Source of the DNA: Pseudomonas antarctica
GTDB lineage: Bacteria > Pseudomonadota > Gammaproteobacteria > Pseudomonadales > Pseudomonadaceae
Length of the DNA stretch: 64,000 nt
Assembly (NCBI RefSeq): GCF_001647715.1
Contig: NZ_CP015600.1
Location: forward strand, 5,952,001-6,016,000
Direction: 5' to 3'
Under the pieces are notes generated by a model. It made no database searches and was not told where the DNA came from. It saw only the letters and a program-made list of their open reading frames with translations. Each line of letters starts with the position of its first letter. Position 1 is the first letter of the stretch. Positions 19,871 to 41,926 of the stretch are shown here, one piece after another. The position numbers and the translations under genes were made by a program.

Positions 19871-19956
19871 GTGCCGTATCTCGCGTAGGCCTCGTCCTGT
19901 GACGCCACGGATTATTCGCTGACTCATCCAACCTTTTAAACACGCCTCAAATCCCT

Positions 19957-20046
19957 GTGGGAGCCGGGCTTGCCCGCGAAGGCGGACTATCAGCCAGCCT
20001 GTCTGGTGGCTGACACACCGCGATCGCGGGCAAGCCCGGCTCCCAC
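19957..20046. repeat. REPIN
   Basis: Inverted arms GTGGGAGCCGGGCTTGCCCG and its complement enclose a second inverted repeat, CAGCCA...TGGCTG. It occupies the first half of the 491-base gap 19871-20361. Confidence 0.85.
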
Positions 20047-20093
20047 ATTTGACCTTCATTGGCTGGGCCGCCGGGACGGGGCCTACAGGACCG

Positions 20094-20122
20094 TTGCGGC
20101 AAGCCAGATCGGCGCTTATAGT
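20094..20122 (+). promoter_or_regulatory. Candidate promoter of the structured leader
   Basis: TTGCGG (20094-20099), 17 bases, then TATAGT (20117-20122). A transcript from here would begin near 20129, about 20 bases before the first leader hairpin. Confidence 0.45.
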
Positions 20123-20150
20123 TCGCCCCGTCGCTGGCATTGACCGGCGA

Positions 20151-20353
20151 TAGGGTTTCGCAGCCCTACAGAGTTAATTCCGCACCCGTCAAAACTGCCC
20201 TGGCGCTCCTGCCAATGGCCGTCTTGTTATGGCGGCTGTGCGTGGGAGACCTTCGGGTCTGCCGGGTCTTAACTCCTCGGTCTGCGAACCCGCGTACAGC
20301 TGCCACCCAATTTGTTTCGCAGCAAACGGTGGTCATTCTTCTCTCGAGTTAAG
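20151..20353 (+). ncRNA. C4-antisense-like structured leader
   Basis: The stretch holds three hairpins. Hairpin I (20151-20168) is TAGGG/CCCTA with loop TTTCGCAG. Hairpin II (20247-20260) is AGACC-TTCG-GGTCT. Hairpin III (20302-20333) pairs GCCACC with GGTGGT and TTTG with CAAA, again with loop TTTCGCAG. A linker at 20268-20288 contains CTTAACTC and CTGCGAA. CTGCGAA is complementary to both TTCGCAG loops. TTAACTC is complementary to GAGTTAA at 20171-20177, and CTTAACTC to GAGTTAAG at 20346-20353, which overlaps the ribosome binding site of the next gene. The layout resembles phage C4 antisense RNAs. The pairings are read directly; the regulatory role is inferred. Confidence 0.5.
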
Positions 20354-20361
20354 GATTCACC

Positions 20362-20655
20362 ATGACCCAAAAACTGCCACCCCGTCGTTTCACCCCGTGC
20401 ACCGAAACCGCCACCGATTACCCAGTGCTGCTAATCGACAGCGACGCCCCACTGCTGGACCTCCACGCCTGCCTGCGCGAACGCCTCAACGCCGCCCTTG
20501 AACACCTCAACCTGATGGCCTGCTCCAGCCTGCCGGACTTCGCCGAACGCGACCTGAACAACGTGGCCAACACTGCGCGCATTCTGGTCCAGGACGTGAG
20601 CGATCTGTTCAGGGTCATCGAGCACCGCGGTTTCGATACGCCTGACGCTGCCTGA
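20362..20655 (+). CDS. Small helical protein of unknown function (DUF3077/DUF6124-like)
   Basis: This is a 97-residue soluble protein with no signal peptide or membrane segment. The central part (PLLDLHACLRERLNAALEHL) and the C-terminal part look helical. Its size, composition and leader resemble the many small DUF3077/DUF6124-type proteins of pseudomonads, whose role is unknown; this link is from memory and uncertain. Translation starts at the ATG after AAGGATTCACC, and the Shine-Dalgarno bases overlap the GAGTTAAG element that the leader linker could mask. A strong terminator follows, so it is a single-gene unit. Confidence 0.65.
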   Translation: MTQKLPPRRFTPCTETATDYPVLLIDSDAPLLDLHACLRERLNAALEHLNLMACSSLPDFAERDLNNVANTARILVQDVSDLFRVIEHRGFDTPDAA

Positions 20656-20670
20656 TCAAATCCCGGCCAC

Positions 20671-20699
20671 AAAAAAGCCCGCAGCGCTGCGGGCTTTTC
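20671..20699 (+). terminator. Intrinsic terminator
   Basis: AAAAAAGCCCGCAGC pairs with GCTGCGGGC followed by TTTT. The stem is 20677-20694, directly after the small leader-controlled gene. Confidence 0.85.
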
Positions 20700-20787
20700 A
20701 TTAACACATTATGCTTAGCTGACCCGGGGGCTCAACTGACTTTCCAGAATGACCAGCGCATGACCCTTCCCTTAATAACCATACACA

Positions 20788-40258: not shown

Positions 40259-41926
<1,668 letters not shown>

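Follow-up and report, generated by a model that had tools for sequence, protein, structure and literature searches.

A C4 antisense RNA in the leader of a small-protein gene of Pseudomonas antarctica, whose variable antisense segment co-varies with both of its sense copies

We analyzed a 64,000-nucleotide stretch of the Pseudomonas antarctica genome (NZ_CP015600.1, positions 5,952,001 to 6,016,000; hereafter the window), in which a gene for a 97-residue protein lies downstream of an alginate lyase gene (PF08787) and is followed by a 178-residue open reading frame and then by the gene for class II fructose-bisphosphate aldolase, fba (PF01116, TIGR01521). Reading the sequence and locating the segments by script, we find the same loop sequence, TTTCGCAG, in two hairpins of the leader, one on either side of a linker that itself holds two segments complementary to sequences repeated upstream and downstream of it (Table 1). 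Following the naming used for phage P1 (PMC5320573), we call the linker segment that is complementary to the ribosome site b' and the one complementary to the hairpin loops a'; a1 and b1 are their upstream partners, a2 and b2 their downstream ones. The downstream partner b2, GAGTTAAG, overlaps the AAGG of the Shine-Dalgarno sequence of the 97-residue open reading frame. These segments, the two hairpins, and a promoter-like pair of hexamers had been pointed out in an original prediction made from the sequence alone, and every one of its coordinates is correct. The TATAGT hexamer falls within the first positions of the match to the c4-a1b1 model, and by eye, CTAGTCT or CTTATAGT stretches occupy the equivalent place in other C4 copies. 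Just upstream of the leader, at about 19955-20048, there is also a long GGGAGCCGGGCTTGCCCGCG-type palindrome, which we take to resemble a Pseudomonas REP element; comparable palindromes are present upstream in some relatives of the gene (e.g., L079 and L135).

Table 1. Elements of the leader and its target gene, in window coordinates
Feature	Position	Strand	Basis
Candidate promoter, TTGCGG-N17-TATAGT	20094..20122	+	TTGCGG at 20094, TATAGT at 20117; putative, from sequence only
c4-a1b1 element, region of the upstream sense copy	20116..20171	+	Weak match to Rfam RF03163
a1, loop TTTCGCAG of the hairpin with stem 20151-20168	20156..20163	+	Sequence; TTCGCAG conserved
b1, GAGTTAA, complementary to b'	20171..20177	+	Sequence; tracks b' across 27 forms
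C4 antisense RNA (RF01695)	20225..20310	+	78.6 bits, cut-off 45; helix covariation
b', CTTAACTC, within the C4 P3 loop	20268..20275	+	Complementary to b1 and to b2/Shine-Dalgarno
a', CTGCGAA, lying between C4 helices P3 and P1	20282..20288	+	Complementary to both hairpin loops
a2, loop TTTCGCAG of the hairpin with stem 20311-20326	20315..20322	+	Sequence; TTCGCAG conserved
b2, GAGTTAAG overlapping the Shine-Dalgarno sequence	20346..20353	+	Sequence; tracks b'
Target gene, 97-residue protein	20362..20655	+	Unmatched in Pfam and NCBIfam; two-helix hairpin predicted

The original prediction had likened this arrangement to phage C4 antisense RNAs and had proposed a covariance search with the Rfam C4 model. 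In that search, the linker matches the model well above its cut-off, with an E value of 1e-13 over the 64-kb window, which bears the likeness out. The accompanying model of the upstream element, c4-a1b1, matches less well, at 22.3 bits (cut-off 46.7; E 0.003 over the 701 bases searched). Twenty of this genome's 27 C4 copies were searched with it, and 18 reach E ≤ 0.01, the exceptions being the window's own copy (L008) and L009. Taken alone, the C4 is predicted to fold at -46.6 kcal/mol with all three of its helices formed; in the complete leader, the fold of lowest energy has the linker paired to the upstream copy. For the linker's duplex, the predicted energy is -21.1 kcal/mol when the partner is the upstream copy and -18.2 kcal/mol when it is the downstream one, and 26 and 43 of 2,000 mononucleotide shuffles, respectively, are as low. 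The window's own duplex energies are modestly unusual; the strong evidence is comparative, and it comes from the genome's remaining C4 copies and from relatives of the target gene.

All 27 C4 matches in the genome score above the cut-off. In the three C4 helices, 96.8% of the cells are paired across the 27 copies and 41 cells are changed on both sides, and none of 500 shuffles was as high on both measures. Changes on both sides affect 8 of the 27 helix pairs, including all five pairs of helix P2; in helix P1, which is conserved, 97.8% of cells are paired, and slid controls are 28.5-46.8% paired. We further find that the sense and antisense segments belong together copy by copy: for each of the pairings a'/a2, a'/a1, b'/b2, and b'/b1, own duplex energies beat those of permuted partners (0/20,000 permutations each). 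A complement of a' of at least 6 bases lies just downstream in 25 of the 27 copies (not L021 or L027) and upstream in 26 by machine count, from which we discount L025 and L027, where it lies outside the a1 loop; loop pairing is partly missing in L009 (upstream), L021 (downstream), and L027 (both). Strict Watson-Crick runs of at least 7 bases join b' to b2 in 12 of the 27 copies and b' to the upstream region containing b1 in 13, the remaining b' pairings being shorter or imperfect.

The codes of these copies differ, and the difference can arise between near-identical neighbors. L016 and L019, duplicated genes lying side by side on contig C1 at about 3.686 Mb, share 335 of the 336 bases of their coding sequences; their C4s differ at 8 of 12 columns of the P3 loop and at 5 of 75 in the rest of the C4, and in the alignment both sense copies differ as well. 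When leaders are ranked by joint energy, a C4's own leader comes first in 11 of 27 cases and among the top three in 20. Since some C4s have a better predicted partner than their own leader, cross-talk is possible, and insulation between the C4 codes is, by predicted pairing, partial.

Relatives of the 97-residue gene give an independent view of the same code. We kept 80 of 87 relatives found, all with Pseudomonas in their titles, of which 66 pass a strict C4 pattern and 67 a relaxed one; together with the window, the strict set comprises 67 leaders. The loop segment a' (CTGCGAA) is constant in all of them, and its complement TTCGCAG is present upstream of the C4 in 67/67 and downstream in 66/67, L090 alone being without the exact downstream complement. 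The ribosome-site segment b', in turn, takes 27 distinct forms. After collapsing identical b' segments to one leader per form (67 to 27), the mean longest Watson-Crick run is 7.63 between b' and its own b2 leader and 4.59 between b' and other leaders, and 6.85 against 4.71 for the upstream copy b1, with 0/20,000 permutations reaching the observed value in either case. In L124 and L128, for example, CTTAACTC has become CTTAGCTC, and GAGCTAAG stands downstream in both. Compensatory changes in both sense copies, which the original prediction had named as the support to look for, are thus present: the antisense segment and its two partners change together.

The same prediction had stated that leaders keeping the gene while losing the complementary pairs would speak against it. 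Such leaders exist, and they are few against the general rule. The longest downstream run falls to 3 in L086 and to 5 in L108, and the C4 is absent from 13 of the 80 relatives even by the relaxed pattern. Leader reading covers seven of these 13 (L080, L082, L084, L088, L110, L112, and L115; the others are L079, L127, L129, L135, L136, and L094), and in each of the seven the gene and the upstream hairpin are kept, with no C4 and no downstream copy of the loop.

The AlphaFold model of the 97-residue protein (mean pLDDT 69.3) is a moderate-confidence helical hairpin, with predicted helices at 31-54 and 62-91. Its relatives are called "fructose-bisphosphate aldolase" in public databases; the true aldolase is the neighboring 354-residue gene, and the label is apparently an error passed on by annotation transfer. 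Within flanks of about 2.5 kb or less, an alginate lyase match accompanies 40 of the 80 relatives and an fba match 34 (at least 98% identical in 31), with both alongside in 32; many of the rest are paralogues at other places or sit close to the end of a contig. The recurrence of these flanks indicates that the window's C4 copy occupies a conserved chromosomal site, the alginate lyase-fba site being conserved in many species.

Among close relatives at this locus we find two code alleles, represented in 15 and 9 of 24 readable rows. We placed them on a tree of the flanking genes (27 rows, the three without a readable code being left unlabelled), where they require 6 changes against a mean of 7.5 for shuffled labels, a number as low as which was reached in 89 of 500 shuffles; well-supported branches force only 2 changes. 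The alleles therefore do not clearly follow descent, and the tree is not decisive, so that allele switching at the alginate lyase-fba locus, as read from these sequences, is suggestive only.

Most of the C4 copies in the window's genome precede genes for small proteins of two Pfam families, DUF6124 and DUF3077. There are 23 DUF6124 matches, 22 of them above the Pfam cut-off, and 10 DUF3077 matches; with places matched by hand, 16 of the former and 3 of the latter follow a C4. One copy (L012) precedes a Bro-N protein, and another (L002) a 52-residue protein without a Pfam match, which by eye is like the small proteins that follow C4 in phage phiAH14b and in viral contigs. Five C4s precede other proteins: those of the window, L003, and L025 were scanned and have no Pfam match, and those of L007 and L011, not themselves scanned against Pfam, are 77% and 64% identical to that of L003. 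No small gene follows the C4 of L027. Profile comparison of the window's target family with DUF6124 and DUF3077, as members of one superfamily, was not significant (probability 0.69%).

Seven of the 23 DUF6124 matches are without a neighboring C4, which indicates that C4 control is dispensable. In 4 of 10 C4-less DUF6124 or DUF3077 genes (L150, L151, L153, and L157) a c4-a1b1-like element is still matched, at 30 to 47 bits; the upstream hairpin thus persists after loss of the C4, and the upstream element may have a use of its own. A link in trans between the C4-less paralogues and other C4s of the genome was considered and set aside: it amounted to isolated matches of 8-10 bases, which we judged, with no control, to be at chance level.

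Pfam lists DUF6124 and DUF3077 as families of unknown function, and a full-text literature search returned nothing on the first and a single paper on the second. By eye, a short motif of the MxKxxPxPP type recurs at the N terminus of many target proteins that differ in the remainder (L001, L004-L006, L012, L013, L016-L020, L022, L024, and L026); the Bro-N protein of L012, with MQALTPDPP, comes near it. Beside one DUF6124 gene, a PrrF RNA match (L152, 1057-1183) overlaps the end of the fetched stretch.

C4 RNAs are widespread in the genus. We identified matches above the cut-off in 183 of 199 sampled Pseudomonas genomes, the window's included, and by hand count at least 20 matches were scored in 69 of those; a fuller rescoring of twelve high-copy genomes, chosen from those with at least 20, gives 20 to 47 matches at E ≤ 0.001. 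Among other Gammaproteobacteria, C4 is found in 17 of 273 genomes, with one to six copies each. Sequences similar to the window's C4 are present in 32 phage records (1 at 99% identity or more, 9 at 80-90%, and 22 at 60-80%) and in 8 plasmid records, and a motif search retrieved C4 from 72 viral contigs, which may include misassigned chromosome, with a readable end in 71. By eye, the open reading frames found after viral C4 encode small proteins, including the 52-residue kind and DUF3077-like and DUF6124-like ones. In a set of 45 distinct segments drawn from these viral C4s, the match is better with their own downstream leader (8.22) than with others (5.53; 0/5,000 permutations). These records, taken with the fixed loci described above, mean that the modules occur both with mobile elements and at chromosomal sites.

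From this evidence the leader is very probably a chromosomal, phage-type C4 module, similar to that of phage P1, that represses translation of the 97-residue protein. Its membership in the C4 family, the covariation of its helices, the presence of every sense and antisense segment, and the coordinated changes of its code are observed here, and the way in which these parts would act can be sketched from phage P1. If the candidate promoter is used, transcription would begin just after position 20122 and run through a1/b1, the C4, and a2/b2 into the gene. The P1 C4 RNA is cut out of a longer transcript by RNase P (PMC5320573), and here, likewise, RNase P and another nuclease would free the C4 RNA, about 77 bases long, with the two exposed segments held by its P1 stem. 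In phage P1 the C4 works in trans (PMC8546580) and blocks its target's ribosome site by pairing around it (PMC12197685, PMC5320573); by the same route, a' would dock onto the a2 hairpin loop while b' would cover b2 and the Shine-Dalgarno sequence, blocking translation of the 97-residue protein, and the freed RNA may act in trans. The upstream a1/b1 carries the same code as a2/b2 and so could bind or absorb C4; such a decoy role, suggested by analogy with IsrK and phage P4, would set the threshold of repression. In phage P1, the uncoupling of translation by C4 additionally leads to Rho-dependent termination.

The original prediction had offered, besides a processed antisense RNA, a switch in cis without processing, in which the nascent linker would pair either with the upstream copy (gene on) or with the downstream copy (gene off). 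The P1 precedent would favor the processed RNA, and IsrK shows that a switch using an upstream copy also exists (PMC4825925). We regard the cis switch as possible rather than likely. The upstream copy co-varies with the linker just as the downstream copy does, the upstream duplex is the slightly stronger of the two and is the one used in the minimum-energy fold of the leader, and Rfam isrK matches cover the upstream copy and the stretch before the C4 in 6 of 20 own-genome copies searched (50.2 bits against a cut-off of 50 in L004, below the cut-off in the other five); yet a pure cis switch would need neither the stable C4 fold nor the conserved helix P1. In a related arrangement, IsrK of Gifsy-1, a short upstream RNA acting in trans, activates a silent read-through mRNA to which it base-pairs (PMC4825925). 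A run of five T, present between the upstream copy and the C4 in 12 of the 27 own-genome copies, is missing from the 70 bases before the C4 of the window, which argues against a short upstream RNA there, and the isrK model (RF01394) gives no match in 20000-20700 at E ≤ 1.

Repressor modules of the C4 type could also be part of something larger: a genus-wide address system of up to 47 modules, in which every small protein would be shut off by an antisense code of its own, with code cassettes exchanged at fixed loci, selection for codes that differ between copies, and action in trans on phages and satellites that carry the same code. We put this forward as a speculative and rather unlikely extension. 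Less likely still is an immunity or incompatibility repertoire, modeled on the C4 of P1 and P7 that sets heteroimmunity, in which the chromosomal C4s would act mainly in trans on incoming phages, satellites, or islands of the same code. The phage, plasmid, and viral-contig occurrences of C4 would suit such a repertoire, as would the two specificity alleles at one fixed locus and the antisense segments CCTAACGT and CTTCCAC that L012 shares with phage vB_Pae_U10. Against it, none of the 71 viral C4 segments has the window's CTTAACTC or CTGCGAA, the window's gene is matched only once among 50,697 phage records (in an unannotated 7.4-kb record), and the agreement of each C4 with its own gene's leader fits control of that gene better. 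That the module is decaying phage debris with no present function is very improbable: C4 is a phage RNA by origin, and parts have been lost in L009, L021, and L027 and the whole C4 in some relatives, but neutral decay would break the pairing that is maintained through 27 code forms, the P2 pairs that change on both sides, and the alginate lyase-fba site that is kept in many species.

C4 RNAs of Proteobacteria and phages were listed by Weinberg et al. in 2010 (PMC2864571), and the mechanism in the literature consulted comes from phages P1 and P7. The C4 repressor module proposed here shares with these phages the helices P1-P3, the segments a' and b', the duplicated a1/b1 and a2/b2 (a1/b1 by complementarity and covariation, its model score being below the cut-off), and a b2 placed at the following gene's ribosome site; its code differs between alleles, as it does between P1 and P7. 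In contrast to the phage systems, the window's copy is chromosomal, flanked in many species by alginate lyase and fba, its target is a 97-residue protein without a Pfam match rather than Ant or Icd, and Pseudomonas has many copies per genome with differing codes. An immI-type immunity operon lies in a phage and controls an antirepressor, whereas the window's copy has chromosomal flanks and a target without a Pfam match; L012 of the same genome does precede a Bro-N protein.

The closest chromosomal parallel is provided by the Group 1 C4-like small RNAs of Acinetobacter baumannii, of which 21 similar ones are described in one strain (PMC5320573). They, too, are chromosomal and multi-copy, mostly with the C4 fold and a variable specificity loop, and read coverage suggests that they are processed; their targets are not identified in the parts of that report consulted (PMC5320573). 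In the window's genome, by comparison, nearly every C4 lies in the leader of an identifiable small-protein gene with both sense copies, and copy number in the genus reaches 47 matches. The IsrK/STnc1160/orf45-anrP region of Salmonella Gifsy-1 resembles the leader in having an upstream element, an internal complement, and a downstream ribosome site (PMC4825925), and isrK matches overlap some leaders of the window's genome; it differs in that the short IsrK activates in trans (PMC4825925), and the window has neither an isrK match nor the T-run. Phage P4 CI RNA, which we liken to the leader by description only, is an antisense RNA between two complementary sequences, seqA and seqC, of one transcript, and it causes transcription termination (PMC4825925).

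The C4 family is thus already known, and we did not find described its expansion across Pseudomonas, the small-protein targets, or the changing three-part codes, in a literature consulted by titles and opening lines and mostly without subscription journals. With dozens of readable codes beside adjacent targets, the insulation of parallel antisense codes in one cell becomes testable, as does the question of how a three-part code changes without losing control. The Pseudomonas set also offers a way to ask what the small proteins of DUF6124 and DUF3077 do. Elsewhere in the window, at 40389-40495, there is a match to the SAH riboswitch (62.4 bits, cut-off 37).
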